IMG/VR virus record: IMGVR_UViG_3300043398_000421
Span: 1-46,845 of that record
DNA: 46,845 nt
Origin: a virus
Strand: one strand, 5' to 3'
Part shown: piece after piece, positions 4,281 to 43,379 of the stretch
Layout: each line of letters opens with the position of its first letter
Numbering within the stretch: position 1 is the stretch's first letter
Program-made: the position numbers and the translations under genes
The notes under the pieces: generated by a model
The model's database searches: none
Seen by the model: only the letters and a program-made list of their open reading frames with translations
Told to the model about the DNA's origin: nothing

Positions 4281-4289
4281 GGAGGTCCC

Positions 4290-4550: not shown

Positions 4551-4562
4551 AAGGAGAATTAG

Positions 4563-4892: not shown

Positions 4893-4902
4893 GGAGAATC
4901 CT

Positions 4903-8117: not shown

Positions 8118-8121
8118 TGAC

Positions 8122-8195: not shown

Positions 8196-8198
8196 TTG

Positions 8199-21566: not shown

Positions 21567-22220
21567 ATGGGTCTATTCGGAGGCGGAACAGCCAAGGAAG
21601 GGAAGGCGATGGAGCGGCAGGCGGCATCGCGCTACTCGCAATTGGCGGACTCGCTGTCTTCATTGGCGGCACCGCAGCGAAGCCAGGTCTCGGACTACTA
21701 CTCCAGCATCATTAAGGGTGGCCCCGAGGCATCGCGCGTTACGGCCCCGGAAGTCGCCGACCTCAAGCGGCAGTACGCTGGCCTGGACCAGCAGATTCGC
21801 GACAAGTTGCCTGCCGGCGGGGCGCAGCAACGCGCAAGAATGCAGTTGGTAGCGCAGCGGCCAGGGGCCATCTCCGCGCTTCGACAGCGCAAGGTGGAGG
21901 AGGCGCTCCGCGGGCTGTCCCAGCTTTCTCAGGCCAATACTTCCGGCGCCCTCGCGGCCAATCAGGGTGTTTCGAGTTCTGCTCGTAATTTCATGGACTT
22001 GGCGGAGAAAGAGCGTAGCCAATGGACGAACCTTCTCGGCGGGTTGGGCATGGCGTTGGGACAGCAGGCGATCGGCGGGATATTCTCGTCTGGGCCCAAA
22101 AAGCTTCCATCCAAAGTACAGTCGATCCCGATTCCGGGTGTCCCTGTCCCGGCGCAACTCCCTTCTGGGTTGCCTGACTGGCTCACGTCAATCCCGTCGT
22201 TCGGATTGCCGTCTTACTAA
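21567..22220 (+). CDS. Probable internal virion/ejection protein, 217 aa
   Basis: GGAGGG precedes ATG 21567. It begins MGLFGGG, a hydrophobic/Gly start often seen in phage virion membrane-interacting proteins; the middle is a long Ala/Arg/Gln-rich helix (LKRQYAGLDQQIRDKLPAGGAQQRARMQ), and the C-terminus is Pro-rich with a small hydrophobic stretch (LLGGLGMALGQQAIGGIFSSG) that may insert in membranes. This resembles the small ejected proteins of podoviruses, but no family is secured. It precedes two further proteins of the same predicted class. Confidence 0.55.
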   Translation: MGLFGGGTAKEGKAMERQAASRYSQLADSLSSLAAPQRSQVSDYYSSIIKGGPEASRVTAPEVADLKRQYAGLDQQIRDKLPAGGAQQRARMQLVAQRPGAISALRQRKVEEALRGLSQLSQANTSGALAANQGVSSSARNFMDLAEKERSQWTNLLGGLGMALGQQAIGGIFSSGPKKLPSKVQSIPIPGVPVPAQLPSGLPDWLTSIPSFGLPSY

Positions 22221-22235: not shown

Positions 22236-24380
22236 ATGTCTTTACCGCAAGCATTCGGGACGCTGTTCGAGGGTTACCTGAACGGACGCCAGCACGCGCT
22301 GGACCAGCAGTCGAAATTGAAGGCCGAGGAACGGGCGGCGCTCAATAATAGGGCCAGCCTCTTGGTCAAGATGATGCAGGAGTATCCCGCGACGGAATAC
22401 AAAGAGGTGCTGGGCAAGTCCCTGGTGGAAACCCTCGACGCGATTGATTCCGACGGCAAGCGTAGCGCGAAGCAAAAACCAAATGGCCTGGGATCCATGT
22501 TCCGGGGATTCTTCGGGATACAACCCAAAGAACAGGCCTCTCATCCACTGCAATCGATCGCGGAAGTCATGAAAGAGGCGGAACGGCAACGCCAGGCGCA
22601 CGCCGCGGCCACCGGAGCTATGGGCTCGGTTGCGGGTAGCGGACAGGGCCGCGGTGGGCCACCAGTGCGCCCGCAGGTGCGCGGGACGCCGGAGGGGCCA
22701 TCGCCAACGGACCCAGGACAGGGCGACTTCCTTGGCCGGGCAGTAGAAGAGCCTGCTCCGCCGCGGGCCGTCATGACGCCACAGCACGTCCGGCTTGGGG
22801 ACGCTGAGTACCAAGCGACTCCCGTCGTCACGTCGCCGGCGCTTCGGGCCTACTCGGGCGCTAGTCCCGACGCACGCGGAGACGCAATGGCGCAGCAGTC
22901 GCCCCATCCTGAAGACACGTCGCCAGATCTCGCGGACTACTACGCGGGCCGATCCATGTCCGTTCCGCCGCTTTCCGCTGCCCCCGATATGGGAGGCCTC
23001 GCTCGCCCATCCGGGATGGAGAGAGACGACGCCTCGCTTCCGCAGCGTAGCCCCATTGTCGAGAACTATCTCCAGAAGGCCCGGCCGTCATTCGGTATCC
23101 CACGCTCTGCTCCGCGCCCGCAGCCGATGGGGGGGCATAGTCACGCCGACAGCGAAGCCGAGATCATCCGCAGAAACACCGGATATGGCGGATTCCGCGA
23201 CGAAGAGGCGATTAAGCGCGGGATGGCCGCGCTCCAGGGGCAGCACAAAGCGGAGTCGGACATTTACGGCGATGAATTGGACGAGTGGATGGGCAGCGTC
23301 ATCCAGCGCACGGGACAGTTCGTCTCCGGGCTTCCCGGGGATCAACGGTCGTTTACGCGCCTCATGTCAGAACATCCCCAGTTCGCGCAGGTGATGACGG
23401 AACTGCAGGCGGTGGACCCCAAGGTATTCGAGTCGTTCCGGACGAGCGGGCTTTTCTCGGATTATCAAGGCCAGGGCTTCCAGAAGCCTGACCCCATGGG
23501 CGCACTGGACCAGCAGATCGTGGACGAGGGGCGTGATGCCGGGAAAACCGGGATCCAGATCAGGCAGGAGCGCGAAGCTGCGGGAGCCCCGCTTGACCAG
23601 CAATGGAAGGCGCGTGTCGTCAACGACTACGTGAAGAACGGGTTATCGCCGGACCAGGCCAACCTCAAGTGGGAGGCGTCCAAGAATGTCCGGGATGCGG
23701 CGGCGCTTGCACTGGCTCAAGCGAAAGGTATCCCACTGCACCAGGCGGTTGCCGAAATGGAAAGCGCGTCAAGGGCGAAGCCGATGTCCGAGGTGGTATT
23801 CGACGCGTACATGGCGAAGAACGGCGGCAACGCCATCGCTGCATACCGGGAATACAAGGCCGCAGACGATACTCCGGAAGACGCAACGAAGCGCAGGAAG
23901 AACCAGCTACTTGAGGGGTTGGTGAAGCAGTACGGCGAAACGCCGGCTGGTATCTCGAGAGCCCTGCGTGAAGTGGACGCGATCGGAGACAGGCCGGACC
24001 TGCAGCGCGTCGTGGCGGTAGACCCTGAGACCAAGATGAGCGTATTCGCTTTCATCAATCCGCTCAACCCCGGGAGACCGATCTATACGAAAGTTCTGTC
24101 GCCCGATCAGCCAAACCTTGATCAATGGACCGAAACGGTCCAAGTCCTAGACGGAGAGCGAGACGAAACAGGAAAGATCCGTCCGGGGCTGGGGGTTTTA
24201 GTCCCACGAAAGCAGTACAGCGCAGCCAAAATCATAGACGGGCTCAAAAAACAGACGCTTCGGCGCGATCAGGCGGAAACGATGGCGACGACTCTGAGAG
24301 ACGCGGACCCGAACTCGGCGGCAGCAAGGCAGATTTTCGACTTCATAGACAATCCGGCATCAACGATAGACCGGCCGTAA
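22236..24380 (+). CDS. Probable internal virion protein, 714 aa
   Basis: AGGA upstream of ATG 22236 is a weak ribosome site. The N-terminal 90 residues are helical and basic/acidic (LDQQSKLKAEERAALNNRASLL), followed by a long Pro/Arg-rich disordered part (about 110-290) and a mostly helical C-terminal half (DQQIVDEGRDAGKTGIQIRQEREAAG; then KNGGNAIAAYREYKAADDTPED). No catalytic motif or lytic transglycosylase signature found. The order small ejection-like protein, this protein, giant polyvalent protein fits the ejected proteins of podoviruses, so a role in DNA delivery is inferred. Confidence 0.55.
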   Translation: MSLPQAFGTLFEGYLNGRQHALDQQSKLKAEERAALNNRASLLVKMMQEYPATEYKEVLGKSLVETLDAIDSDGKRSAKQKPNGLGSMFRGFFGIQPKEQASHPLQSIAEVMKEAERQRQAHAAATGAMGSVAGSGQGRGGPPVRPQVRGTPEGPSPTDPGQGDFLGRAVEEPAPPRAVMTPQHVRLGDAEYQATPVVTSPALRAYSGASPDARGDAMAQQSPHPEDTSPDLADYYAGRSMSVPPLSAAPDMGGLARPSGMERDDASLPQRSPIVENYLQKARPSFGIPRSAPRPQPMGGHSHADSEAEIIRRNTGYGGFRDEEAIKRGMAALQGQHKAESDIYGDELDEWMGSVIQRTGQFVSGLPGDQRSFTRLMSEHPQFAQVMTELQAVDPKVFESFRTSGLFSDYQGQGFQKPDPMGALDQQIVDEGRDAGKTGIQIRQEREAAGAPLDQQWKARVVNDYVKNGLSPDQANLKWEASKNVRDAAALALAQAKGIPLHQAVAEMESASRAKPMSEVVFDAYMAKNGGNAIAAYREYKAADDTPEDATKRRKNQLLEGLVKQYGETPAGISRALREVDAIGDRPDLQRVVAVDPETKMSVFAFINPLNPGRPIYTKVLSPDQPNLDQWTETVQVLDGERDETGKIRPGLGVLVPRKQYSAAKIIDGLKKQTLRRDQAETMATTLRDADPNSAAARQIFDFIDNPASTIDRP

Positions 24381-24437: not shown

Positions 24438-27400
24438 ATGGCTTCTTTAGTCGAAGACCTCCTTGGCCCCCCGGGCAATGCTTCCAGCCGGGGACCCGTC
24501 GATAGGGCCAGCCGCGCAGAATCAATCCTCGGGCGTTATCCGGCTCTGACGCCGGACCAGCGCCGGCAAATAGTTGACTCCATCCGAAACGCGAACGTTG
24601 ATGTCACGTTCAGGGACATGCTCCGGAATTCCGGCATGGCCAAGCAGGACACAGGCGCGCTATGGGACATGGGCTTGGAGTCTGTCGATGAGAGGCGAGC
24701 CGCTCGCAACCCAACGGCTGTCCCTCCGGCCCCTCAACCGGCCAAGCCAGCGCTCCCGCCAAAGGCCCCGGTGTCGGCGGGATTCACGGACACCCTGAAG
24801 GCGTGGCCTGGTGAATTCCTCAGCCCGAAAGCCGCTGCTGTTGCCCCTGCAGTCCCTAAGTTGCCGCCGAAGCCGAATACGGCGTTAACGATGGGGGCGC
24901 AATCTCCGGTTCCTGACGCTACGCCCGTGCCAGACTCCACGTTGCGGCCCTCTGCGCCGACTGGCGTGCCCCCGAAGTCTTCGTTGCCTCCGCGGCCGTC
25001 GAGCCAGTTCCCCGCCCCGGTGGGCAGTATCGGAGGCGAAATTAAACCGCCAACCGGAATATGGGCTGAGCCGCAGGGGCCGGTAGGGACTGGAGAATTT
25101 GCGCCAAAAATCAAATCGGGCCCATTGGCCCCTACTGAATCCGGCGGGATCATCAGCGGAATGCTGACGCTTGACCCGGTCAGTCTTGCGCCTCCCCCTT
25201 CTGGTCCCGAGATCGCACGAGAAGAACAGCTTTTGATTTCCGAGGGCCGGGCGCTCGCGGCGGAAACCGAAAAATTCAAGTCTATCCGCGATGCCATTGA
25301 GGCGAAGGTTCCCGGGCTGAAGGCGAGGAAAGCGGCACTGGACACGGAATTGGCCGCTATTCAGGCGGAGGTCGGCAATAGAGACACGCGCGCTCGCACA
25401 TCCGTCTCCGTGCTTAACGCGGAGACGGCGGAGATTGAGAGAGAGGATGCCGCGCTTGAGCGAGCAATCAGCGCCTTCAATTCGGCGGCAACGGCCGGAC
25501 AGATGGATGCCGCCCAATTCAGTGCCGCGAAGACCGCGCTCGACCAGCGTATCGCCTCACTTAGAGCACGGGCTGATTCCCACGCTGCCGCAGTTGACGC
25601 ACACAACAGATCCGAGCAGTCCGACCCGTTGATGGCGAGGATTGCCGCATACCAGAAAGCCGAGCGCGATCTCATCGCCGCATTGGACGCGCAGGCGGCG
25701 CCGGGGTTCTCCGCGAACACGGCGGCGCTCCAGGCGAAATGGGCGGACTACGAGAACCGCGCGACGGCCTTCAAAAAGAAGGTGGACCCGAAGCAGCAGG
25801 GCCAGGTCTACAACCCCGGCATAGGCTGGACGCTATTCGGAGAATTGGGGCTTGCCGCTCCGGTCGCCGGCGCCGTCGGCGCGGCCGGCGGAATCGTCCG
25901 CGCCCTCTCCACTGTTGCCGAGGCGGTTATGCCGGAAAGCGCCGAAGCCCGAATGCAGCGTGAAGCATTAAAGGCGATGGAAGGGCTTTCGTTTGACGAG
26001 CGAATGGCCCGGATGGCCTATCTCCGCCAATCGTCCCCGGATCACGTCCTGCTGAAGAAGCCCGACGAACTGCACGTAGACCCGCTCACGGGGATACTGA
26101 AAGAGAGAGCGGGGCTGATGGAGGCGGCCACCGAGCAGTTGCGAGGGGGCGACTTCGGCGGGGGCGGCTTCAATGTTGACCGGTCCAAGCTGACAGGAAC
26201 GGAGTCCGCGGTGCTTTCGGGCCTTGAGTCAATTGGAAGCAATGCTCCCGGACTGGTGGCTGGCGCGATGGCTCAGACACCAAAGCTCGGGGCGGCCATC
26301 GCTTCCACGCTCATGGGACTCTCTACCGGGGGACAAAGCGCCGGAGAAGGACGCAAGGCCGGATTCAGCCCTGGGAAGGCACTCCTCTACGGCGGTATTG
26401 ACGGACTCGTCGAGACTTTCACGGAATACATCCCGTCTCACATCATGATGGATTACTTGGCCAAGAAGAATCCGTCATTCCTTCGGATGCTGTACGAATC
26501 CTCCATCGCTGAGCAGCCGAGCGAAGTAGCCGCTACCGGGCTCCAAGAGTTGAACCGGTGGCTGTTCAACCCCGACCACAACAACGAGTCGTTCAAGGAT
26601 TTCCTCCTGCGGATGCCCGAGGCGGAGCGGCAGACCATAATTGCCACAACAGTCGCCACCGTCGGACAAACGGGGATGATTCACGCGCTGAAGCGGATGG
26701 GCGAGAGTCCGGATGCCGCCAATGATCTGGCCGCCCGAGGCTTGGCGCGAGAGAAAATAGACGAATTTTTGGCCGCAATTAGAGGGTTGCGTTCGTCAGA
26801 TGCGGGCACGCCTCCCGCAACGGAGCCGTCTTCCGCTGGAGTAGTAACGCCCGAGCCGCCGTCGCCCACTCCGTCGCCCGCAACTCCGAGTGTGGCGCTG
26901 CCTCCGTCTCCTCCGCGCATCTTCCAGATCGGCGGGAACCAGGTTGTCGGAACGTTCAGGGACAACGTGGTTTACGCGGACGGCCGCGTGATCTCGATGG
27001 CCCGGCGCCCGTCGTACATGCACGCGTTGCGGCAATACGACATTCCGCAGATGACGCACGAGCAGGTGCAGGCGCTCCAGGAGTCGCAGAAGCCCCCGTT
27101 GCCGCCGGCGCAAGTGTCTGCGCCGAGCGCCCCGCCTCCGATGCCGGTGCGTCCCGATGCAAATTCGTCGCGGCAGGAGTTGCCGCCGAGGCCCGCGGGT
27201 ATCACGGGGCACGTGCATATCCCCTCGATGAACCGGGATGTCCCCGTATCGGAAGTGGCGGGCGTTAGCCGCGGAGTGGAAGACGTGGCAACCATGGGCT
27301 CGAAGGTCATTATGGCCGATGGCGCCACATGGCCCATCTCGCGCAGCGTCCTTGATTCTCTCGTTGCGGCCGGCGCCGCGGACGTTACGCGGGTGCCACC

Positions 27401-30400
27401 TCAATTCGGTTCCTATGAAGAAGCGCAGGCCGCTATTGATCGGTTTGAGGACGCCCTTGACCTGAAATACGTGGATGTCAGGCATCCAGACGGGCGCTCT
27501 GTCTCGGCGTCGCTGATAGCCACCTCTCCCTATGCCAGCCCAATAACTGCGGCAGATACGGCGGAGTTATTGGCCCTATACGAGGCCAGGGATGCCTTCT
27601 CTCGGGAAGAAACAGCGCGCGACGTTACGGACATTGACCGAAGATTCGAGGCGCTTATCCCGGACACGGCCGAACGCGCATCGTTCGTCCGTAGCGTCGC
27701 GCAGGCGGACCTGCCTATATCCATCCGGAATAATAGCGATGTCCGTGGCGTCGGAGGACTAGCCAACATGATCGTCCACCGGCTCAGCGAGCAGTACGGC
27801 GATCATCCTGCCACCGCGTTCACGATTGAATCCAGCAATGAAGGAACTCCGGGTAGTCCCGGTATGCGCCTGCGCCTGATTCACGAACCTGGCCTTGGTC
27901 CATCGCGGCCAGTTCTGAATGAGGCGCAACGCTGGATGAAGCACCTTTATCCAGAGGAGACTCCGATCATCCCCGGCGCAAGGATCGCGCCTGAGACACC
28001 AGGACTCCCTGAGCGGCCGAGCGAGACGACTTTGCCCCCATCTGCGGACGACGCCGGTGTCATTATCGGGGCCCCCGCTCCGGATACCGGAGAGTTCGAG
28101 GTAAAGGCCCGGGGCGAGACACAGGCCGAAGCGCACGCCGTTGCCATGGAGGCACTCAGGAAGTCCGGGAAAGACCCTGATCGGTATTCCATGGATCCTG
28201 CGGTCTGGAAGAAGGGGGCGGTGCGCCCATCCCGGGGGGGCGTGGAGATTGACGCGAACCCTGAATATACGTTCACCTTCACACCGATTCCCCCCCCCGT
28301 CACCGCCGAAGACATAAAGAGGATACCTGCGGATATCGAGGCAACTGGTCTCAAGAATCTGGAAGAGCGATCCGACGAAGAAATAGCGGAGGCGATGGAT
28401 GACGCCGAGGCCTTGTCGCGGGCGCAGGCGCTGGGCTACGCGAGAAAACTGCTCAAAGATGGGGTTGGGGTCGTCCCGAAAACGCTGGCCGAGAGTTACG
28501 GGATCACCCTGGCAGCGGCTTCCGAAGTAATCGCCGAGGCGCGCAAAGAGGCGGGGCTACCGAAGGCAGGCGCAGTGCCGGACGCACCAAAGGCTTCCCC
28601 GCAGGATACTCCCGGATATCGTATCGAGCCGCTCCCAGACGGCCGCTTCGACATCATCCGCCCTAACGGCAAGCGCTCCTCGATGGGGCCTTTCGCAAGT
28701 AAAGAAGAGGCTGCGGCTGAAATGGCCGTCATGGAAGAGGCCAATCCGCAGAAGGCTCCGGCGCCGTTGAAGTCCCCTGCGGTTAAATCGTCGAAAGCGC
28801 CGGCACCGCCGGCGAAAGCGAAGACTCCCGCGATTAAGCCGTTGCCTCCACAGCCATCGGCCCAGTTGAGCGACGCGGATGCGATGAGGGAAGGTATCGC
28901 GAGCGGGAAGCTCTCCGCGGAAGACGAGGACGCGCTGTCGGTAGACTTCTCGTCCCCCCCCCGCGGAGAGGGCGCCGGCGACATGATGGGCGGCTTCCCA
29001 GTCGTCCCCACGCCGGAGCGGCCGTTCATTACGAAGCGCACTCCGCACGGGCCGAGAGTTTGGGCAGACGCGGCGGCGATAGAACTCATTATCGAGTACG
29101 CGAAGCCGGAAGAAAGAGACGCTGGAAGCAAAACTTCCGCGCTGACGGTCCGGAACGTTGACCCCGGTGCCGTTCAGTGGATGTCGGAGGAAATGGCCGA
29201 AGCGCAGCGTTTCGGCGACGAAGAGCGCGTAAGGCGGCTGGCGGGCCTGCGCGATGTCTTCGCCGAAGCGGTCGCTGACGGTAGAAGCCAAGTCGCGATC
29301 GTCCCGATGAACTCGAACGCCGCCAACATAGGCGGCCCCATGAGTTCGCGCCTTGGGCTAGGCAGGCAACGCGCCGCTCAGCTTGCCAGGCACGAGATGG
29401 TCCACCAAGTTCTCGGTGGAATCCTTAACGGCGCGGATTATACCGCATTGGACGAAGTCCCCGCGATTCGCTCTGGATACCCTGGCCTTGCGAAAAAGGC
29501 CGATGGCTACTACAGGGCGGTCCACGGGACGACGCGCCGCAATCTCGTCACGCGCGTCGAAGAGATATTCACGCATATCCTCGCTGGTCAGGAGCGCGAG
29601 ATCAGGCTGACCGAAGACCAAGCCGTTGCGATAATCTCCGATGCATGGGATAAGCTAAAGGCAATCAAGGGGGGCGCGGCTGCGGCAAAGGTTTTCCGAG
29701 TCGGCAACCCCCGTATTACGGGAAAGGTAGGCGGGTATGTCAAAGAGGTATTTGGACGTGGAGGTCCACAGTCCGTTGGAGACAGCATTCATGGTGCTGG
29801 AAGAGGGGGGCAAGGAGGCGTTGAGGGACTACCTCCGAAGCCTGAAGGAACCGGCGGACTCGACATCGACAGAAGTGAGTCTCCCCCCGAAACCGGAGAC
29901 AAACGGCTAAGCACTCTTGCGCCGGGAGTGCGCACTCCGGTGATCAAGACCGCCGGCGTCATTTACCGGAATACGGAATCCCGGGATGAATGGGCAGCGC
30001 AGATGCTCGCCAAGATCGGCGAGAAGGTGCGCCCCTATCTGAATAGCCTTTACGACTTGGCCGAGGATGTGGCCGAAACTCACGGGTTGCCGCAGCATCG
30101 GCAACAGGAGGTGACGGATGTACGCACTGGAATCGCTGGAAAACCTGGCGAAGCGGCACATAGTGGACTACCAGCCGCTTCTGGCCAAGCGGCTGGAGGC
30201 GAAGGGAATGCTGGAGAAGACAGCCAATCGTCGGGCGAAGTTCGCGCTGGAAACCTACCAGGCCAACCAGAAGCGGTTGCCGGCGGGGGGAGCGGAGGAG
30301 TTGATGTACGAGGTACTGTATCCGATCCCGGACGAAAGGGAAGTTCAGGAGTCGGAGCGCCTCGCACAACAAACGACGGCTTCTACCGAATAACGGAAGC

Positions 30401-33400
30401 CGACCATCTGGGGGAAGGCGGTCCCCGTGAAAAGCTGGTTCGAAACCTCACGGCCATCCGGACGCTGAAATCTCTCGATTCCGAAGGGCGACTCCCGACA
30501 CCTGCTGAAAAGCGTATTCTTGCTGGATACGTCGGATGGGGAAGCCTCGCGCAGGCTGTCTTCTCGGAGAAAAACGCCAAGCTCCCGGAACGGCTTGAAC
30601 TCGAGCGGCTCCTCACGCCGGAAGAACTGGACGCCGCGCGTAAGTCCACGATGAATGCGCACTACACCTCTCCACAGGTGATCAACTTCATGTGGCAGAT
30701 GGCGGGAAGGCTGGGCTTCAGCGGAGGCACCATCCTTGAGCCAGGCATGGGAACGGGCAATTTCTTCGGTCTCGCCCCGGCTTCGGTTCTGCCAAACAGC
30801 ACATTCCTCGGCGTTGAACTGGACCAGATTACAGGGAAGATCGCGCAGTATCTTTACCCGGGCGCGCAGATCATGGTCCGTGGATACGAGACGGTAGTCA
30901 TGCCTGACGGCGCCGTCGATTTGGCGATCGGTAACGTTCCGTTCGGTAATTACAAGCTGTCCGATCCCCGCTACCGGTCCCAGAACCTGTCCATCCACGA
31001 CTACTACTTCGTGAAGACGTTGGACAAGGCGCGCCCCGGCGGCATTGTAATGTTCATCACGAGCCGTTTCACCATGGATAAGATGAGCCCGCGGGTGCGC
31101 GACGCCATGGCTTCCCGCGGCAACCTTGTTGCGGCGTACCGGCTTCCGAATACGGCCTTTAGGCAGAACGCCGGCACCGAAGTCACCACGGATATCATCA
31201 TCCTGCAGAAGCGGCAACCCCAGACGCCGCAGTCTGGCGAAGCGTTTTCGAGTGTGACGGAAATCGCCCCGGGACTCGCCATCAACGAGTACTTCGCCAG
31301 GCATCCGGAGAATATGTTCGGGCGAATGGCGTTGACGGGCAAGATGTACGGGAAGCGGGAAGAGGGCGAGCCTACGCTTGAACCGACGGAGCCGCTGGAC
31401 ACGATGATGGCGAACGCCATGCGCCGGGCTCCGCGCAATGTGATTGACGCGATTCAATCCGCCCCTCCGATGATTGCCGCCGCGGCCCCAGGAGATGTCA
31501 GGGAGTTGGCGTATACCGTTCAGGATGGCAGGCTGCTTCAGCGCGTTGACGGGGCGCTCGTTGCGCCATTGGACAAGAAGCTCGAGACGGAGCCCTACTT
31601 ATCCCAGATGCGGGACTTAGTTCAGATCAGAGACCAGGTCCAGTCGCTGATTACGCTGCAGCGAACCGTGGACGACGACGCCATGCTTGCGGGGCCACAG
31701 GGCCTCCTGAACGAAACGTACGATGCGTACGTGAAGAAGTACGATTACCTGAACGGGCGCCGGAGCCGGATATTTGAGGACGATCCGCAGTACCCGCTCT
31801 TGCTGTCTCTCGAGAACGTCAATCCTGAAGACAAGTCCGTGACCAAGGCGGACATCTTCACAAAGCGGACGATCCCGGCGAGCATGCCGCTGACGGCCGT
31901 ATCTTCCGATATGGCCGAGGCGCTCAGCCAAGTTATCGCAGAGCGGGGCTTCCCGGATCTCGAGTTTCTCGCATCATTGGCGCACCGGCCCGTGGAAGAA
32001 GTCACGGCGGAACTCGTGGACAAGGAACTCGTATTCCTTGACCCGTCTACCGGCAAGTACGACGCCGCATCAACCTATCTGTCTGGGCGCGTGAGAGAGA
32101 AATTGGCCGTAGCGAAGGCCGCAGCGCAGCAGGATAGCGCGTATCAGCCCAACGTAGCCGCGCTGGAAAAGGTCCAGCCTGAAGATAGGCTGCCGCAGGA
32201 AATTTCGTATTCTCTCGGCGAATCGTGGATCCCGGAAGATGCCTACAAGCAATTCATTGCAGAGCGTCTCATGGGGGCAGAGCCTGGCGGAGAAGCCCCT
32301 TACGAAGTCACGGTCTCGAAATTGCCGAATAGTTGGCTTGTGAAGTTTCCGGCGACGGGGGCTCAGCAGTTGGAGTGGAGCGTCCCACAGATCCGCTTGT
32401 CGGAATTGGTCGAGATCGGGATGGACCTGAAGAGACCGACGATATGGATTAAGCATTCTGACGGGTCGAGGTCCATTGATCAGCAGCAGACGATTATCGC
32501 GAGAGAAAAGCTGCTTCAGATTCGGAACGCATTCGAAGAATGGGCGCGCACGTCTCCAGTATGGAGCGGCCGTCTGGCGCGGCTATTCAACGAGACGTAC
32601 AACGCGACAAGGCTTCCGTCTTTTGATGGGTCCCACATGCCGCTCCACGGGATATCCAAGGAGGTTACTCCGTATCCGCATCAGAAAGACTTTGCGTGGC
32701 GGGTGGTGATGGAGCGTCGAGCCATCGCCGCGCACGAGGTTGGGACGGGTAAAACGATCTCCACGATTATCTCCGCCATGGAACTCAAGCGCATGGGCAT
32801 CGCCAAGAAGCCGATGATTGTGTCTCCGAATGGCAGGGTGCGTCAGTGGGCATCGGAGTTCGCGCGGACTTACCCGGGAGCGAATGTCTTGATCATTGGG
32901 CCTGAAGACTTGGCCGGCCCACGTCGGCGCCTGATGTCCGCGAGGATTGCGACGGGCAATTGGGACGCGGTAATCATGCAGCACAGTTCATTCGGGCTAC
33001 TGCCGATGTCTCCGCAGTATGTCGCGAATACCATCCGTGAAGAAATCGCGCAATTGAGGGACGCGATCAAATCGGCGCAAGAATCTGAAGCGGCGGCCGG
33101 CGGCGGGAAGAGTAGCCGGACAGTGAAGCAACTCGAGAAGTCAGCGGCGGCGATGGAAACGAAGCTGCGCGAGCTTCTGGAGAAGCCGAAAGATAACACG
33201 ATCAAGTTCGACGAACTTGGCGTTGACTTCATTTTCGTGGATGAAGCGCACCTCTTCAAGGGACTCCCGGCATACACGAAGCTGGGGAATGTCTCCGGCC
33301 TCGGTGGTCGCAAGGGATCAGGTCGTGCAGCCGACATGAAGACCAAGATTGATTTCGTGCGATCGCGCCGGGAAGACGGTGGCGGGGTGGTATTCATGAC

Positions 33401-36400
33401 AGGAACCCCGATCACGAATTCCACCGTAGAAATCTACACGATGACGCGGTTCGTGGCGCCGGATGTTCTCCGTGACCTGGGGATTAACTCTTTCGATGAC
33501 TGGGCCGCTCATTTCGGGAACGTGGTTGACGTACTCGAGATGTCCCATGACGCCCGGAGTTATAGGCCGAAGACAAAGTTCAGGCTGATCGTTTCGACCA
33601 GCAAGGAACTCAGCGACATGTTCAGGATCTTTACGGACCTGAAGTACGCGGATGAATTGGGCATCAAGCGGCCGAGGGTTTACGGCGGAGGCCCCGAAGC
33701 CATCATCGTTCCGAGCAATGGCGTAACGGAGCCGTTAATCCAAGACATCGTTGAGCGTATTGACGATCTCCGGCGTAACCCTACGAAGCAATTCGAGAAG
33801 GGGGCCGACAACCATCTCAAGCTCAATACCGAGGGACGTCTCGTCGCGCTGGACCCACGGCTACTGAATCCCTCGTTGCCGGACCACCCTGAGTCGAAAA
33901 CCAACATCGCAGTCTCCAGAATATTCAAGGTATGGGAGCGAAACAAAGAGAAGCGGCTGACACAGTTAGTGTTTTCGCAGGGATACCGGCTGGTGAACCA
34001 CGCGACCAAGCAGGAAATCTTCAACCTCTATGAGGACATGAAGAAAAAGCTGATGGCGAAGGGAGTCCCGGCCAGCGATATCGCTTTTGCGTCGGACTAT
34101 GCGGGCAATGAATCGCAGGAACTGTACGACGCAGTGAACGCCGGCGATATCCGGATCGTCTTCGGGACGACAGAGAAGATTGGCGTTGGCGCTAACCTGC
34201 AGCGGCTGATGCTCTATCTCCATAACCTGGACCCGACATACAGACCTGATCAGCTTGCCCAGCGCATCGGCCGAATTCTGCGGCAGGGGAACCAGAACGA
34301 AGAGATCCACATCCTGAATTACGGACTGGAAGGCAGCCTGGACGCGTACATCTACCAAATGATGGAGTCCAAGGAGCGCGAGATCAGGCTGTTGCTCTCA
34401 AAGGGAGAAATGCCTTCCGACGGGGACCCTTTCGGGGAATTCGTCGTTCAACTCGGGCAGATGAAGGCCCTGATTTCCGGGAACACGGACATCATCCGCC
34501 AGATGGAACTCCAGGCGGACATCATGAAGGTCGAAGCGGTCCGTCGCGACAAGGCTTCGCGAGTGAATGCGCTGCGGTTCGAGGAATCCAAGATTCAGGC
34601 CAATCTTGAAAGCCTGCACAAGCAGATACCTATCGTGTCTCAGGTAATCGCTGGATACGACGAGTACAAGGCTGCGGTGAAGAAGGCTGACGATCCAGCC
34701 AACTTTTTCAAGGCCCAAGTGGGCGGCCGGGAGTTTGGGGCCCGCGGGGAGTTGGTCAAATTCATCGAGGCGGCGCCGGAGGAAGCATTCGGAAGTCCTG
34801 CGCTTCTATTCGGCATTCCTGTGAGGTTTGACCAGGTCGGGAAATGGCGAGGCGGTGACGCACAAAGCGTCGGCGAACTGAAGCACTCTCCACATGATGC
34901 GGCGTTCAGCGTATCCGATTTCGGGCGCATATCGGAGTACAGCAACGCGCTGAAGGCGGTTAACGAGATTGCTGACAAAATAAGGTCCGGCGAGTTATCC
35001 GGCCCACAGGAAGTCGTGTTACCGGACGGACGCAAGGTGACCATTGAGCGTGTCCAAGCCTATCGCTACCACCTTGCGAACGAATGGCACGATGTCCCGC
35101 AGACGGCTTCTGGATTCCTGACAAGCATTGTCACCCAACTGAATAACGCCCTCCCGAAAGAAGCGGAGAAACTAGACCGGGAGCTTGAAGGCAAAAACAA
35201 GGAGTTGGAGGACGTCCATTCTCAGCAGGCATCGCTCAACGATCAGGCGGAGAATGTCAAGCTCGCGTCCATGCAGCGCGAGCTGTCCGAGATCATGGAT
35301 AGGCTGAATCCGAGGGGCAGGCCGGAAGATGCGGTGATTGATCCCGACGCCGTTGAGGCGTCCGACGAAGAAGGTGAAGACGAAGAGGCACCGGCGGCAA
35401 AGCCGAAGCCCTCTCTCAAGATTGACCGCAACGAAGACTCGTTCACGCCGTCCCCGTTGCCGCAGCCACCTCCGCCGTTCGGCCAAGACAGGAAGTACGC
35501 GATCCTTCGCGCTGGCACAGGCAGTGAAGAGATGGATAACCGCGGCGCACAGATGGAAGAGGCCGCGGCGCTCCGCGCGAGCATAGACGCCGCATACGAA
35601 AGCGGCAATACGGCCGAGGCGGAGCGGCTGGAGCAGCGGCTTGGCGCGATCGAGGAGGGGCTCGAGCCTGAGTCTGACTTAGAGATTGACGCTGTGATGG
35701 ACGGGGTATCGAGTGAGGAGCAGTTGGCTGGCCTCTACGCCCGACTCGGCCATCCCGGCGCCGACCGTCCACAGATTGCGGCCCAAATGCGGGCCGTTAT
35801 TGAGGATGGGGCGAACAACGAGTCCGGTTTCGTCGGGAGCCCTTATGCTCCATCGGCCCCACGCACGGACCTGACCGACGCCGAGATCATGGATGCGGCA
35901 AAGGATGCTTACGAAAGCCGGCGCGCCATCCACGGGAAATTGAAGAAGGCTCCAGGAGGGGCGTTACAGCGGGCGAAGGAATGGATTGCATCGAGAGGGG
36001 GGCCGCAGGGGCCACCGCCACCGCTGGGCTCGCGGCCACGAGAAGGAGAGCGTGGCTCGTTCTCCATGAAGCCGCGGCCAAAGACGGACGCGGAAGTCGC
36101 CCTCGAGAAGGCCGACGAGATCAAGGAGAAGAACCCGCTGATCGGACAGATTCTCGGGGCGACGGCGGGGCAATCCAAGCCGTCCATCATGGAGCGAATC
36201 CGGGCATCGATGGATCGTCACGCCAAGGATTGGGTCTGGGAGTACTCGACGTCCAAGTTCCCGCAGGTCCAGGAGTGGCTGGCGCGAATCATCGACATCG
36301 TTCCGAACGCTATGAAGCAGGCGACTGCGTCGGTCGATCAGATCCTCGGCCCCGAAGTGGCCCGGGAAGACTCTGAATTGGCGCGGCAGATCATCGTCCT

Positions 36401-39329
36401 TGAAGACGCGATCGAAACGGCGATGCGCCTTGGCCCCGACAAGTTGCCGAACCACTACCTCGGACTGACGGTGGACAATGTGCAGGACTACCTGGACGAG
36501 ATCCAGAAACTGGCGACGCCGGAAGCGAAGGCGATCGTGGAGCGGTTCCACGTCACGATGGAAGCGTCTTTCGGCGACCTCGTCCAGCGCGGGAAGCTGG
36601 ACGAGGCATCAAAGAAGCAGAAGTATTTCCCTAACGTTGTCCTGGACTACCTGAATACGCTTGATCAAGATGCCTATGTTTCCGCCGTCCTTCATACGCC
36701 CGGCGGCCTCCAGGGGATGCAGGACCCGCCGGAAGCTCCCGGCCTGAAAGAAAAAGAACACACGTTGCGTACGAGCGTTCCATCGCGCCTTAAGGAACCA
36801 TTCCGCGGATATACGCTAGAGCGGAAGGGGCACGGCGAAAAGTTCCATTCCGCTGATGTATGGGATGTGACATGGCGATATTTGACCAAGCTGAACGCGG
36901 ATAACCACGTAGACGATCTGAAGGATAGCGCCATTAAGCAGTTCGAGAATACGACGCTGGATCCCGCGAGCGGCCGGATGCGAAAGCTATCTGGGGCGGA
37001 ACGGGCAGCCATACTCGCATCCACCGGAGGCCGAGTTAAGCCGGACGCCACGTATTCGGATCAATCAGGAAACCGGTACTACGGATACCAGGTTAAGCCC
37101 GGAAGCCGCATGTACCGGGCGATGGTCACGAGGGAGGCTAATTGGGAAGCTGCCGTCATCGCCGGGCTAACCGCGGCAGAGCTTGAACAAATCGGCACTG
37201 CGGCGGAGGGCTTGGCGGTTGGCCGCAAGAATCCGGCGGTGCTTCTCCCCATGGAACTCGCGAAGCGGCTGATCAGTTTTCATGAGAGGCCAGATATCGG
37301 CGAGATCGTCAAATGGGCCGTTCGTGCAACATCGAAGTGGAAGGCGATCACCCTCACGAATGCCGGACTGACATACCAGACGAATAATTTACTCGGCGAT
37401 TCGCTTCACGCGCTGTCGTGGGAGCCCGCGACGGTGCTCAAGATGTACCCGGCGCTGAAACTGCTGTGGAAGGACCGGATGCGCACGGCTGACTCCATTC
37501 TCGCCAAGCTGACACGGGCCTCCCTGAAACGCATGGGGATAGCCGACATTGAGTTGACCAACGCCGAAAAGGACATGATCAAGATGATGGAAGACGCCAA
37601 AGTGTTACACGCGTCGGCGACTTCATTCTTTGACCAGTTCGGCGGCAATGCAAGGCTGGACGATTCCGAGATCTACCGGCGCACGATGAAGACTGGATGG
37701 GAGAAGACGAAGCTGCAGGGCAAGAAGGTTCTGGCGGACCTCTGGAATCACATGGGGATGCGGACGATCGGCGAATACCGCGAAGCGTTGCCGCGTGTGG
37801 CAATGTGGATGGCGATGAACGATCACATGGAGAAGAGCCGGGCATCGTTCCGGAAGAAGTTTGTCGCCGACTACAAGAGAGCCAACAAGGGCATCCCCCC
37901 GGGTGCCAAGATCGTCCGAAAGGCGGAATCGTCGAAAAACTTCCTGCGGCCATGGCAAAAAACATTCGGGCTGACCAATGAGCAGGCGAGAGACGCCGCC
38001 CCTCGCGACATCTTAATCAATTATTCGAAGAAGACGTGGCGGTTCTCAACGTATATAAGCGGATTGGCGCTTCCGTTCGCCACGTACAACCTGAAAATCG
38101 TGGGCTCGGTTCTCCGGCAGGCGAAGAGTCCGTACTTCTGGGCTATTCAGGGCGGCTTGCTGACGGCGGCGTGGCTTTGGAACAACATGTACTACCCCGA
38201 TGATGAGCGCGACGCGCCCGAATGGATGAAGTACAAGTTGCATGTGTGGCTGCCAGCGAATGATGTTGACCCGAAAACCGGGAGAACGACCAGGAAAGCG
38301 CTCGTTGGTAACTGGCTGCCGCTCAATATCGCGGGTACGTGGGTGGGGCTCGACAAGTGGTCTTCGTACCTTGGTGAGATATACAGGGGCGATTCCGATA
38401 CGAAGAAAATCGCCGGGAACGTCATCGAGGACTGGACCGGCTACAACCCCGTATCGGGGACAGGTATCGTGGCCGTAAATAGCGCATGGGCCAAGACCGC
38501 GGCCGCGATGGTCGGCCCTCTCGTTGCCGCGTTTGAAGGGCTTGTCTATAACCGCAGGGGCGCGACCGGCCGCCCGGTTGTCCCGGAAAGGCTGAAAAAC
38601 ACTCCACGCGGGGACGCGATGGCATATTCGTATGTCATAGAGAGGATGTTGGCCCCGGTGACGCAGGGGGTGACGGCCTATGAGGCCGTAATGCAAGAAG
38701 CGCCGGAAGAAGATGAAGACCTCGACGATGTGAGCAACCCGCTGGCTCACGCAACCGCAGGCGCAAAGTGGGGGTCTTCGATTCTGGGTGCATACCTATT
38801 CGACCGTGGCCCACTGGACCCATGGAAGGCTATCGGTGGTCACGAGATCGATGTTCAGCGTGAGCGGCAGGCGAAATGGCGGAATGAATTGCGTGCTCAG
38901 GAGAACATGCATAACGCCAAGCTACTGGACATCCAAGACCTATATGTCAAATTTGAAGGCGGACGCCAATACACCGAAGAGCAGTTTTCCGGGGAAATGG
39001 AGAAGATCCAAGAAGGGGACGGCCCATACGTCCCAACGCAGACGGTGTGGCGCCTACTGCGATCGCCGCAGACGCGAATCCGCGTGGCGCAGGCGCAATT
39101 TCGCGGGACGAGTGACCCCGAGAAGAAGCGCCAACTCTCGGAAACCATAAACGCCCTGGACAACCAGATATTGGCCGAGTCCCGCAAGGGCGCCCCGAGG
39201 GCCGTACGCCCGGAGTTGCCGCCGATACCTTTTTCGGATACTGCGGCGCCGTCCGGGGTGCCGCCGGGCTCCTATTCGGCTCCGCGCGGGTTCCCGCCAA
39301 GGCCGCCGAGTTTTCAGCCGCAGCCGTAA
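24438..39329 (+). CDS. Giant polyvalent protein (4,963 aa): zincin, N6-adenine methyltransferase, SF2 helicase, large C-terminal domain (DarB-like)
   Basis: An uninterrupted frame of 14.9 kb. Layout, approximate residues: 1-85 helical head; 85-260 Pro-rich linker; 260-455 coiled coil; about 460-490 and 590-760 hydrophobic Gly/Ala segments that may enter membranes; 1652-1656 HEMVH (zincin metal-binding motif HExxH); 1986 onward DarB-type region starting RITEADHLGEGGPREK; methyltransferase motif I LEPGMGTGNFFG at 2100-2111 and motif IV variant NVPFG at 2166-2170; helicase Walker A GTGKT at 2769-2773 (K2772), DEAH at 2935-2938, motif VI QRIGRILRQG with R3276; 3300-3700 coiled coil and acidic linker; about 3730-4963 C-terminal polyvalent domain with WKAITLTNAGLTYQTNNLL near 4301 and a hydrophobic helix near 4563-4585. 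Probably packaged and ejected with DNA to block restriction. Confidence 0.85.
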   Translation: MASLVEDLLGPPGNASSRGPVDRASRAESILGRYPALTPDQRRQIVDSIRNANVDVTFRDMLRNSGMAKQDTGALWDMGLESVDERRAARNPTAVPPAPQPAKPALPPKAPVSAGFTDTLKAWPGEFLSPKAAAVAPAVPKLPPKPNTALTMGAQSPVPDATPVPDSTLRPSAPTGVPPKSSLPPRPSSQFPAPVGSIGGEIKPPTGIWAEPQGPVGTGEFAPKIKSGPLAPTESGGIISGMLTLDPVSLAPPPSGPEIAREEQLLISEGRALAAETEKFKSIRDAIEAKVPGLKARKAALDTELAAIQAEVGNRDTRARTSVSVLNAETAEIEREDAALERAISAFNSAATAGQMDAAQFSAAKTALDQRIASLRARADSHAAAVDAHNRSEQSDPLMARIAAYQKAERDLIAALDAQAAPGFSANTAALQAKWADYENRATAFKKKVDPKQQGQVYNPGIGWTLFGELGLAAPVAGAVGAAGGIVRALSTVAEAVMPESAEARMQREALKAMEGLSFDERMARMAYLRQSSPDHVLLKKPDELHVDPLTGILKERAGLMEAATEQLRGGDFGGGGFNVDRSKLTGTESAVLSGLESIGSNAPGLVAGAMAQTPKLGAAIASTLMGLSTGGQSAGEGRKAGFSPGKALLYGGIDGLVETFTEYIPSHIMMDYLAKKNPSFLRMLYESSIAEQPSEVAATGLQELNRWLFNPDHNNESFKDFLLRMPEAERQTIIATTVATVGQTGMIHALKRMGESPDAANDLAARGLAREKIDEFLAAIRGLRSSDAGTPPATEPSSAGVVTPEPPSPTPSPATPSVALPPSPPRIFQIGGNQVVGTFRDNVVYADGRVISMARRPSYMHALRQYDIPQMTHEQVQALQESQKPPLPPAQVSAPSAPPPMPVRPDANSSRQELPPRPAGITGHVHIPSMNRDVPVSEVAGVSRGVEDVATMGSKVIMADGATWPISRSVLDSLVAAGAADVTRVPPQFGSYEEAQAAIDRFEDALDLKYVDVRHPDGRSVSASLIATSPYASPITAADTAELLALYEARDAFSREETARDVTDIDRRFEALIPDTAERASFVRSVAQADLPISIRNNSDVRGVGGLANMIVHRLSEQYGDHPATAFTIESSNEGTPGSPGMRLRLIHEPGLGPSRPVLNEAQRWMKHLYPEETPIIPGARIAPETPGLPERPSETTLPPSADDAGVIIGAPAPDTGEFEVKARGETQAEAHAVAMEALRKSGKDPDRYSMDPAVWKKGAVRPSRGGVEIDANPEYTFTFTPIPPPVTAEDIKRIPADIEATGLKNLEERSDEEIAEAMDDAEALSRAQALGYARKLLKDGVGVVPKTLAESYGITLAAASEVIAEARKEAGLPKAGAVPDAPKASPQDTPGYRIEPLPDGRFDIIRPNGKRSSMGPFASKEEAAAEMAVMEEANPQKAPAPLKSPAVKSSKAPAPPAKAKTPAIKPLPPQPSAQLSDADAMREGIASGKLSAEDEDALSVDFSSPPRGEGAGDMMGGFPVVPTPERPFITKRTPHGPRVWADAAAIELIIEYAKPEERDAGSKTSALTVRNVDPGAVQWMSEEMAEAQRFGDEERVRRLAGLRDVFAEAVADGRSQVAIVPMNSNAANIGGPMSSRLGLGRQRAAQLARHEMVHQVLGGILNGADYTALDEVPAIRSGYPGLAKKADGYYRAVHGTTRRNLVTRVEEIFTHILAGQEREIRLTEDQAVAIISDAWDKLKAIKGGAAAAKVFRVGNPRITGKVGGYVKEVFGRGGPQSVGDSIHGAGRGGQGGVEGLPPKPEGTGGLDIDRSESPPETGDKRLSTLAPGVRTPVIKTAGVIYRNTESRDEWAAQMLAKIGEKVRPYLNSLYDLAEDVAETHGLPQHRQQEVTDVRTGIAGKPGEAAHSGLPAASGQAAGGEGNAGEDSQSSGEVRAGNLPGQPEAVAGGGSGGVDVRGTVSDPGRKGSSGVGAPRTTNDGFYRITEADHLGEGGPREKLVRNLTAIRTLKSLDSEGRLPTPAEKRILAGYVGWGSLAQAVFSEKNAKLPERLELERLLTPEELDAARKSTMNAHYTSPQVINFMWQMAGRLGFSGGTILEPGMGTGNFFGLAPASVLPNSTFLGVELDQITGKIAQYLYPGAQIMVRGYETVVMPDGAVDLAIGNVPFGNYKLSDPRYRSQNLSIHDYYFVKTLDKARPGGIVMFITSRFTMDKMSPRVRDAMASRGNLVAAYRLPNTAFRQNAGTEVTTDIIILQKRQPQTPQSGEAFSSVTEIAPGLAINEYFARHPENMFGRMALTGKMYGKREEGEPTLEPTEPLDTMMANAMRRAPRNVIDAIQSAPPMIAAAAPGDVRELAYTVQDGRLLQRVDGALVAPLDKKLETEPYLSQMRDLVQIRDQVQSLITLQRTVDDDAMLAGPQGLLNETYDAYVKKYDYLNGRRSRIFEDDPQYPLLLSLENVNPEDKSVTKADIFTKRTIPASMPLTAVSSDMAEALSQVIAERGFPDLEFLASLAHRPVEEVTAELVDKELVFLDPSTGKYDAASTYLSGRVREKLAVAKAAAQQDSAYQPNVAALEKVQPEDRLPQEISYSLGESWIPEDAYKQFIAERLMGAEPGGEAPYEVTVSKLPNSWLVKFPATGAQQLEWSVPQIRLSELVEIGMDLKRPTIWIKHSDGSRSIDQQQTIIAREKLLQIRNAFEEWARTSPVWSGRLARLFNETYNATRLPSFDGSHMPLHGISKEVTPYPHQKDFAWRVVMERRAIAAHEVGTGKTISTIISAMELKRMGIAKKPMIVSPNGRVRQWASEFARTYPGANVLIIGPEDLAGPRRRLMSARIATGNWDAVIMQHSSFGLLPMSPQYVANTIREEIAQLRDAIKSAQESEAAAGGGKSSRTVKQLEKSAAAMETKLRELLEKPKDNTIKFDELGVDFIFVDEAHLFKGLPAYTKLGNVSGLGGRKGSGRAADMKTKIDFVRSRREDGGGVVFMTGTPITNSTVEIYTMTRFVAPDVLRDLGINSFDDWAAHFGNVVDVLEMSHDARSYRPKTKFRLIVSTSKELSDMFRIFTDLKYADELGIKRPRVYGGGPEAIIVPSNGVTEPLIQDIVERIDDLRRNPTKQFEKGADNHLKLNTEGRLVALDPRLLNPSLPDHPESKTNIAVSRIFKVWERNKEKRLTQLVFSQGYRLVNHATKQEIFNLYEDMKKKLMAKGVPASDIAFASDYAGNESQELYDAVNAGDIRIVFGTTEKIGVGANLQRLMLYLHNLDPTYRPDQLAQRIGRILRQGNQNEEIHILNYGLEGSLDAYIYQMMESKEREIRLLLSKGEMPSDGDPFGEFVVQLGQMKALISGNTDIIRQMELQADIMKVEAVRRDKASRVNALRFEESKIQANLESLHKQIPIVSQVIAGYDEYKAAVKKADDPANFFKAQVGGREFGARGELVKFIEAAPEEAFGSPALLFGIPVRFDQVGKWRGGDAQSVGELKHSPHDAAFSVSDFGRISEYSNALKAVNEIADKIRSGELSGPQEVVLPDGRKVTIERVQAYRYHLANEWHDVPQTASGFLTSIVTQLNNALPKEAEKLDRELEGKNKELEDVHSQQASLNDQAENVKLASMQRELSEIMDRLNPRGRPEDAVIDPDAVEASDEEGEDEEAPAAKPKPSLKIDRNEDSFTPSPLPQPPPPFGQDRKYAILRAGTGSEEMDNRGAQMEEAAALRASIDAAYESGNTAEAERLEQRLGAIEEGLEPESDLEIDAVMDGVSSEEQLAGLYARLGHPGADRPQIAAQMRAVIEDGANNESGFVGSPYAPSAPRTDLTDAEIMDAAKDAYESRRAIHGKLKKAPGGALQRAKEWIASRGGPQGPPPPLGSRPREGERGSFSMKPRPKTDAEVALEKADEIKEKNPLIGQILGATAGQSKPSIMERIRASMDRHAKDWVWEYSTSKFPQVQEWLARIIDIVPNAMKQATASVDQILGPEVAREDSELARQIIVLEDAIETAMRLGPDKLPNHYLGLTVDNVQDYLDEIQKLATPEAKAIVERFHVTMEASFGDLVQRGKLDEASKKQKYFPNVVLDYLNTLDQDAYVSAVLHTPGGLQGMQDPPEAPGLKEKEHTLRTSVPSRLKEPFRGYTLERKGHGEKFHSADVWDVTWRYLTKLNADNHVDDLKDSAIKQFENTTLDPASGRMRKLSGAERAAILASTGGRVKPDATYSDQSGNRYYGYQVKPGSRMYRAMVTREANWEAAVIAGLTAAELEQIGTAAEGLAVGRKNPAVLLPMELAKRLISFHERPDIGEIVKWAVRATSKWKAITLTNAGLTYQTNNLLGDSLHALSWEPATVLKMYPALKLLWKDRMRTADSILAKLTRASLKRMGIADIELTNAEKDMIKMMEDAKVLHASATSFFDQFGGNARLDDSEIYRRTMKTGWEKTKLQGKKVLADLWNHMGMRTIGEYREALPRVAMWMAMNDHMEKSRASFRKKFVADYKRANKGIPPGAKIVRKAESSKNFLRPWQKTFGLTNEQARDAAPRDILINYSKKTWRFSTYISGLALPFATYNLKIVGSVLRQAKSPYFWAIQGGLLTAAWLWNNMYYPDDERDAPEWMKYKLHVWLPANDVDPKTGRTTRKALVGNWLPLNIAGTWVGLDKWSSYLGEIYRGDSDTKKIAGNVIEDWTGYNPVSGTGIVAVNSAWAKTAAAMVGPLVAAFEGLVYNRRGATGRPVVPERLKNTPRGDAMAYSYVIERMLAPVTQGVTAYEAVMQEAPEEDEDLDDVSNPLAHATAGAKWGSSILGAYLFDRGPLDPWKAIGGHEIDVQRERQAKWRNELRAQENMHNAKLLDIQDLYVKFEGGRQYTEEQFSGEMEKIQEGDGPYVPTQTVWRLLRSPQTRIRVAQAQFRGTSDPEKKRQLSETINALDNQILAESRKGAPRAVRPELPPIPFSDTAAPSGVPPGSYSAPRGFPPRPPSFQPQP
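29737..29910 (+). CDS. Possible overprinted small ORF inside the giant gene (57 aa)
   Basis: In another frame than the giant gene, ATG 29737 to TAA 29908-29910 encodes a protein-like sequence with two plausible helices: D-V-E-V-H-S-P-L-E-T-A-F-M-V-L-E, then K-E-A-L-R-D-Y-L-R-S-L-K. Over the same bases the giant frame reads Gly/Arg/Ser-rich low complexity, as if out of frame. An upstream AGG-rich stretch (AAGGTAGGCGGG) ends one base before the ATG, so the ribosome site is weak. It may be a relic of an ancestral gene order. Confidence 0.3.
   Translation: MSKRYLDVEVHSPLETAFMVLEEGGKEALRDYLRSLKEPADSTSTEVSLPPKPETNG
30118..30393 (+). CDS. Overprinted small ORF inside the giant gene (91 aa)
   Basis: ATG 30118 is preceded by AGGAGGTGA at 30106-30114, about as good a Shine-Dalgarno site as any in the window, at proper spacing. 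The product is helical and looks protein-like: A-L-E-S-L-E-N-L-A-K-R-H, then L-A-K-R-L-E-A-K-G-M-L-E-K-T-A-N-R-R-A-K-F, then E-E-L-M-Y-E-V-L-Y-P-I-P-D-E. The giant frame over the same DNA (about residues 1895-1983) is Gly/Ser/Ala-rich low complexity. It ends just where the DarB-type region begins in the giant frame (RITEADHLGEGG). No family recognised. Either a genuine nested gene or a fossil of fused genes. Confidence 0.5.
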   Translation: MYALESLENLAKRHIVDYQPLLAKRLEAKGMLEKTANRRAKFALETYQANQKRLPAGGAEELMYEVLYPIPDEREVQESERLAQQTTASTE

Positions 39330-41430: not shown

Positions 41431-41646
41431 ATGTCGAATTCAACGAAAACTGAGTTGGCTCCGCTTTCATTTTCGGTTTCCCTGAAGGGCGGGACGGTTG
41501 AACTCGAGTTCAGCCGCTCGATCGAATGGGTGGGGCTCCCTTCTACGGCCGCTCGTGAGATGGCGAAATCCCTCATGGCCGCGGCGGACCGCGCTGACGG
41601 TGTCCCGGAACCTGCGGGATCGCCGCTGATTGTCCTGCCGAACTGA
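41431..41646 (+). CDS. Hypothetical protein, 71 aa
   Basis: AAGGA at about 41415 is too far for a good ribosome site but lies beyond the hairpin; ATG 41431 opens the frame. The protein is beta-rich (PLSFSVSLKGGTVELEFSRSIEWVGLPS), then a helix (AAREMAKSLMAAADRADG) and Pro-rich end. No family. The spacing to the nuclease gene start is 13 bp. Confidence 0.55.
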   Translation: MSNSTKTELAPLSFSVSLKGGTVELEFSRSIEWVGLPSTAAREMAKSLMAAADRADGVPEPAGSPLIVLPN

Positions 41647-41659
41647 CGGAGACACGGTT

Positions 41660-42763
41660 GTGCGCAGTATGGTGTATCGCCAGTCCCTGCTTGAAGATGC
41701 GGCCTGTTTGCATCGTTTCAAGGCCCATCATATTGATGGGGTGGTGCGGCCTGAGAATGAGTTCACGGTCCGCGGGCGCGACATGCACGCCATGCATGCG
41801 GAATACGTGGACCATCTGACCCGCTATCAGATCAGTTCCGACTACGCGATGGCAGAGCAGATCGCCGGCCGGTCGCACTGGTCCCGCGAGGCGGTCCATA
41901 TCTTCAATGGCTGGTATCCAGGGCAGACGTTTGAGCCAGAGACGGTGCTTGGTACTGAAATCAACATCCTGCTGACGGGAGACGGTTCCGTTACGGACGA
42001 CCGTGACAATGCCGCATATTCCGTAACGATAGACAGGCTCGAGATTGACGGCACGAGGGGCCGCGTCGTGGACGGGAAGACCCATTTCGCCGTTTTCGAG
42101 CCCACCACCATTCAGGCGGCGCTATATTCCTGGGCTACGGCCAAGGCCTACCCCTTCCTTGAGGAGGTGGAGTTCAAGTTGGAGTTCTGGCGGTGGGGCG
42201 CCAGCCGATCGCGGTCCTTCACCGTTGCGGAACTGCCGTCGGTCTTCGCGATGGAGGTTCAGCCGTGGATCGATCGGGTGGAAGACGCCCAAGCGAATAA
42301 CCTCTGGCCGCCGATGCCGTCATGGGCGTGCTCGGTTTGCACGATCGATTGCCCCTTGGTGGCGTCGGGTGTCAGCCGGAAGGCGATAGGTCAGATCAGG
42401 TCGGAGGCTGACGCCCAGGCGCTGACGAGCGAGTTGTACGCCATGACCAAAACAGCGGAGCGGCTGCAGATGGCTCTCAAGGGTTATGTCGGGCAGAACG
42501 GGGCGGTTAAGGTGGGGGATGGGATCGAGCTGAACTTTCGAAAGCGGGCGCTGGTCAAGTACTCGCCGGCGAGGGTTCTGCAGCTTAACGACGAGTTCGG
42601 GTTTCGGCGTGACCGGGCGCTACGGGTGGACAAGGCCGAAGTGAAGAAGATCGCGAAGCAGTATCCGGAGTACTTGGCGTCGCTAGAAGAGACGGCGCAG
42701 GATAACTCCACGACAGAGTTCGGATTCGGGATTACGGAGGAGTCGGAAGATGGTGGACAGTAA
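41660..42763 (+). CDS. Cas4/RecB-like PD-(D/E)XK nuclease (367 aa)
   Basis: I chose GTG 41660 because GGAG lies eight bases upstream. N-terminal motif R-G-R-D-M-H (Cas4-type RG...H), then D125 in T-I-D-R-L-E-I-D and D138-G-K140 in V-V-D-G-K-T form the PD-(D/E)XK active site, and Q152-A-A-L-Y156 is the QxxxY motif. Cysteines in the C-terminal half (CSVCTIDC) may bind an Fe-S cluster, as in Cas4/RecB relatives, although the fourth ligand is not obvious. Likely an exonuclease/endonuclease in phage recombination or replication, acting with the Rad50-like ATPase. Confidence 0.82.
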   Translation: MRSMVYRQSLLEDAACLHRFKAHHIDGVVRPENEFTVRGRDMHAMHAEYVDHLTRYQISSDYAMAEQIAGRSHWSREAVHIFNGWYPGQTFEPETVLGTEINILLTGDGSVTDDRDNAAYSVTIDRLEIDGTRGRVVDGKTHFAVFEPTTIQAALYSWATAKAYPFLEEVEFKLEFWRWGASRSRSFTVAELPSVFAMEVQPWIDRVEDAQANNLWPPMPSWACSVCTIDCPLVASGVSRKAIGQIRSEADAQALTSELYAMTKTAERLQMALKGYVGQNGAVKVGDGIELNFRKRALVKYSPARVLQLNDEFGFRRDRALRVDKAEVKKIAKQYPEYLASLEETAQDNSTTEFGFGITEESEDGGQ

Positions 42764-43355: not shown

Positions 43356-43379
43356 GGGAAATCAAAGGGGAGGGTAGCA

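Follow-up and report, generated by a model that had tools for sequence, protein, structure and literature searches.

DarB of phage P1 (2,255 amino acids) is an antirestriction protein that protects DNA in cis. It is located in the phage head, to which its N-terminal 30 residues target it, and is believed to enter the cell (PMC9024508). A set of much larger DarB-like proteins (phrog_10089) is found in Bcep22-like phages and comprises JC1 gp69, Atu_ph08 gp21, POI1126 gp30, the PEp14 protein and VvAW1 gp1. JC1 gp69 was detected in CsCl-purified virions by mass spectrometry with 51 unique peptides, and the products of the two genes upstream of it, gp67 (196 amino acids) and gp68 (510 amino acids), are likewise present in virions (PMC9144972). 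No domain is commoner in polyvalent proteins than the zincin, and a single polyvalent protein in which a zincin is fused to an adenine methyltransferase and SNF2 pair has already been published (Iyer et al. 2017, PMC5512222). The same authors described the LPD36 motif (GXGU) N-terminal to the methyltransferase in polyvalent proteins (Iyer et al., PMC5512222).

The window, i.e. the whole stretch of DNA that was analysed, is a virus record 46,845 bases long, which may be a fragment. No near relative at the DNA level was found in the phage collection. Searches with exact peptide patterns gave no close relatives among viral contigs (patterns from the module, the zincin region, the C-terminus and the 1,059-amino acid gene) or among genome contigs (module only). 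The giant gene is one ATG-to-stop open reading frame of 4,963 codons (Table 1). Its GC content by codon position is even along the whole length (0.61-0.75 at the third and 0.36-0.56 at the second position), which is the pattern expected of coding DNA throughout. The motifs HEMVH (residue 1652), NVPFG (2166), GTGKT (2769), DEAH (2935) and QRIGRILRQG (around 3275) are present, as is LEPGMGTGNF.

Table 1. Position and basis of assignment of features in the window.
Feature	Position	Strand	Basis
Whole gene, 4,963-amino acid DarB-like polyvalent protein	24438..39329	+	Open frame, codon GC, PHROG match
Protein of 217 amino acids, at the position of bbp12 (231 amino acids)	21567..22220	+	Gene order and size only
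Protein of 714 amino acids, at the position of bbp11 (720 amino acids)	22236..24380	+	Gene order and size only
Domain common to Bbp10, Jess A gp39, NVP1185O_18 and VvAW1 gp1, residues 590-789	26205..26804	+	tblastn, phmmer
Probable zincin, residues 1530-1770; HEMVH 1652-1656; candidate third ligand VEEIFTH 1707-1713	29025..29747	+	Motif, A2
LPD36-like GxGG motif (LGEGG), directly before the methyltransferase	30390..30431	+	Alignment A1
N6-adenine methyltransferase, TaqI-like (LEPGMGTGNF, NVPFG)	30600..31230, approximate	+	PHROG, A1, M.TaqI profile
SNF2/SF2 helicase-like motor (GTGKT, DEAH, TGTP, QRIGRILRQG)	32640..34440, approximate	+	Pfam, PDB profile
C-terminal region, residues 3642-4963	35361..39326	+	Weak profile alignment to VvAW1-like C-termini

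Residues 1891-3637 match the PHROG profile phrog_10089 ("DarB-like antirestriction") with 1308.6 bits across the methyltransferase-SNF2 module. P1 DarB aligns collinearly with the window protein in blastp, with E-values of 4e-19 for the methyltransferase part and 3e-12 and 1e-6 for further segments. Within this region, residues 1985-3400 contain the LPD36-like motif, a TaqI-type N6-adenine methyltransferase and an SNF2 motor. Pfam recognised SNF2-rel_dom above its cut-off (E 3.3e-9), and Helicase_C scored slightly under its own. A profile made from A1, an alignment of nine module sequences with 36-39% identity, matched M.TaqI chains and ISWI/SNF2 chains in the PDB. The catalytic motifs of methyltransferase and helicase are intact in the window protein and conserved across A1, in which both glycines of the GG pair in LGEGG are also invariant. 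With the PHROG and PDB profile matches, the methyltransferase and the helicase are far beyond chance. In a FastTree phylogeny of 89 modules the window sequence groups, at a large distance, with those of L015, L019 and L022 (support 0.999).

Most of what the original prediction had read from this gene is borne out: a single frame of 14.9 kb with the motifs at the places given, a DarB-type polyvalent protein (by the phrog_10089 profile, the blastp match to P1 DarB and the M.TaqI and SNF2 profiles), and a length like that of proteins in Bcep22-like podophages, in which proteins of this type with 4,500-5,000 residues are known. The domain search that it had proposed recovered the methyltransferase and helicase segments with PHROG, Pfam and PDB profiles. 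As is typical of polyvalent proteins, a single chain encoded by an invasive element joins unrelated enzymatic domains, the methyltransferase and SNF2 domains being firm and the zincin probable.

Comparable giants are encoded by Atu_ph08 (4,877 amino acids), Mwe-JY07 (4,985), POI1126 (4,841), PEp14 (4,914), JC1 (4,515) and VvAW1 (3,640). The peptidase reported among them is M15-like by Pfam and not an HExxH zincin. The window protein resembles the Bcep22-like set in size (3,640-4,985 amino acids in the set), in the methyltransferase and SNF2 module (31-38% identity), in being encoded by one giant gene near virion genes, and in the zincin motif, which many of the set possess. It differs in that its HExxH motif lies before the module whereas theirs lies after it, in flanks that are almost unrelated in sequence, and in giving no Pfam matches to InPase, LPD3, LPD38 or LPD39, unlike the set. 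With P1 DarB it shares the collinear methyltransferase and SNF2 domains and the NVPFG motif; P1 DarB is half as long and has no HExxH, and in P1 a zincin-like motif (HELGH) is found on the separate protein DdrB. The example WP_004096050.1 from Acetonema longum (Iyer et al. 2017) has the same three enzymatic domains and an LPD36-like motif; neither an ART nor a GGDEF domain was detected in the window protein.

Outside the module, residues 590-789 form a stretch with relatives of a different kind. The best tblastn hit in the phage collection has an E-value of 2e-10, and phmmer scores range from 31 to 59 bits. The matches are Caulobacter phage Jess A gp39 (59 bits), Bbp10 of Bordetella phage BPP-1 (2,052 amino acids; 55 bits, tblastn E 3e-10), the giant Vibrio phage protein NVP1185O_18 (38 bits) and the N-terminus of the DarB-like VvAW1 gp1 (31 bits). 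Bbp10 is annotated within the structural cassette of BPP-1, where it is preceded by bbp12 (an internal virion protein of 231 amino acids) and bbp11 (720 amino acids). Like the window protein, it thus stands third after a small and a medium-sized protein, and it also carries an HExxH motif. It is under half as long, and the matches found include no DarB module. In Bbp10 (L097:5347-11505) the HExxH motif reads HESGH and stands at residue 797; residues 594-752 of Bbp10 match DarB-like proteins encoded by PBC5 and Itty13, in about the place that the InPase domain occupies in related giants.

The textbook parallel to such a trio of small, medium and giant proteins is gp14-gp15-gp16 of phage T7. The same order is seen in JC1, VvAW1, L015 (200 and 496 amino acids before the giant) and L019 (194 and 505). 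Among 52 loci, a simple criterion of protein size finds it in 19, so that it is not universal. Neither of the two smaller neighbours of the giant gene matched a known ejection protein in sequence, and shared ancestry with such proteins is not supported by sequence; the reading as an ejection trio is accordingly drawn from gene order and one shared domain and does not amount to proof. On these grounds we read the window protein as the putative third and giant component of an ejection trio, bearing a DarB module. The homology of residues 590-789 to Bbp10 is the best new evidence suggesting ejection and, together with the gene position, agrees with what had been proposed from the place of the gene alone.

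A zincin is probably located between residues 590-789 and the module. HEMVH at residue 1652 is followed by EE at 1708-1709, i.e. an HExxH motif with a downstream Glu ligand, and both sets of columns are invariant in A2. The spacing of this candidate third ligand is that seen in the zincins of relatives. The best score against the HExxH segments of relatives (7.9 bits) was equalled by only 2 of 300 motif-preserving shuffles, and Bbp10 and homologues that share residues 590-789 also possess HExxH. These points argue against a chance match of HEMVH in a single uncleaved chain without protease, a possibility that is compatible with the main reading of the other domains and to which we give somewhat more than one quarter of the weight. 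In its favour, HExxH by itself turns up in 6.9% of shuffles of the window protein. HExxH followed after 40-80 residues by EE and a small or hydrophobic residue, a pattern chosen post hoc, is rare (0.55% of shuffles), which speaks for the zincin; on these figures the zincin is likely but not demonstrated. Against it, the Pfam profile MPTase-PolyVal (PF18818) does not match the region, the nearest relatives (L015, L019 and L022) have no HExxH, and the score of a Bcep22-type zincin profile was equalled by 72 of 100 motif-preserving shuffles, which leaves homology to that profile unproven. Structure models of the region, predicted alone or with 8 aligned sequences, had a mean pLDDT of 48-49 and gave Foldseek hits without meaning, and were therefore set aside. 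The domain search and structure prediction proposed for this segment gave no profile match and low-confidence models. Taken together, motif and spacing make a zincin the likely identity.

The original prediction had also regarded a protease placed before the DNA enzymes as an addition unlike DarB. P1 DarB indeed lacks HExxH, yet relatives have it. The motif N[PV]PFG could be recognised in 90 related proteins; HExxH lies downstream of the helicase in 40 of these and upstream of the methyltransferase in five (L027, L041, L043, L065 and L077); these figures are motif counts, many of them clearly zincin-like, and not tested domains. In L043 the distance from HExxH to the methyltransferase is 526 residues, against 514 in the window protein. 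The view of the zincin as an unusual addition was rejected, since this census and the published zincin-methyltransferase-SNF2 protein show that neither its presence nor its place is new.

The observations are best explained, with a probability of roughly three in four, by a packaged DarB-type ejection protein that protects incoming DNA. The polyvalent protein would be the largest of three ejection proteins packaged in the phage head and would pass into the cell together with the DNA. The SNF2 motor would travel along the DNA as it comes in and the TaqI-like domain would meanwhile methylate adenines, a modification that would shield this DNA in cis against type I-like restriction. Self-cleavage of the polypeptide by the zincin would probably separate the DNA enzymes from its structural parts. 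Presence in the virion has been established by published work for relatives (JC1 gp69, P1 DarB) and antirestriction for P1 DarB; for the window protein we infer packaging, ejection, podovirus type, cis methylation and self-cleavage. As no terminase, portal or major capsid protein was recognised in the contig, the virion type is deduced indirectly, and the phage is probably podovirus-like.

A mainly structural ejection protein, a conduit like Bbp10 or T7 gp16 in which the DarB module serves DNA entry, e.g. as a motor, rather than protection, would also account for the match of residues 590-789 to Bbp10 and for a gene position resembling that of an ejection trio, and SNF2 proteins do translocate on double-stranded DNA (PMC5512222). 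We consider this unlikely, given that a pure motor would have no use for methyltransferase motifs, yet these are intact and conserved, and that the characterised homologue, P1 DarB, is an antirestriction protein. Still less probable is a conventional methyltransferase-helicase that is made early after infection and is not virion-borne, as might be suggested by the downstream DNA-metabolism genes and the second methyltransferase at 46081-46731, because the gene is preceded, on the same strand, by structural and tail genes and the JC1 and P1 homologues are virion proteins.

The window protein is ordinary in kind, a divergent addition to the known family of giant DarB-like proteins. Its main new feature is the extra segment, which also occurs in a protein from the structural cassette of another short-tailed phage. 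Residues 590-789 tie the giant DarB-like family by sequence to such a protein from a different podovirus, and this link allows a test of the idea that the giant antirestriction proteins, rather than being passengers of the head, are ejection proteins to which enzymes have been added. More tentatively, the DarB antirestriction module may here be inserted into an ejection protein of the Bbp10/T7 gp16 class, between the zincin and the C-terminal region, so that a protein that builds the conduit would also deliver DNA-protecting enzymes and release them by self-cleavage.

Apart from residues 590-789, the flanks of the module have almost no detectable relatives. Residues 3642-4963 gave no matches in phages or plasmids. 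A profile of the VvAW1-like, LPD38-containing C-terminus aligns with them collinearly but weakly, with a score of 37.7 against 30.5 for the best of 60 shuffles; the LPD38 profile PF18857 is silent, though no positive control scored either. This part is possibly a very diverged LPD38-type region, which we regard as a lead.

Several other genes of the record, all on the + strand, could be annotated. Downstream of the giant gene, 41630-45475 encodes an exonuclease-like protein (phrog_69, weak), a protein of 201 amino acids and an SbcC-like ATPase. The 201-amino acid hypothetical protein (phrog_11912) has counterparts with 45-54% identity in large Sinorhizobium, Achromobacter, Caulobacter and Xanthomonas phages. 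The DNA methyltransferase gene near the contig end is separate from the giant gene and matches phrog_24333 (E 1.6e-23). A row of methyltransferase-, glycosyltransferase- and aminotransferase-like genes at 2868-7426 looks like a sugar-modification cluster, and another glycosyltransferase-like gene is found at the contig start. Adjoining tRNA genes for Met, Pro and Thr lie at 8047-8275, of which Rfam at the gathering threshold recovers Pro and Thr only. The sole phage match of a 1,056-amino acid protein (10168-13338) consists of repeated stretches of about 31% identity in Limnohabitans phage DC31. A tail-fibre-like protein with collagen repeats is encoded at 19826-21247; its gene overlaps the end of the 1,059-amino acid gene, which contains an amidase-like stretch.
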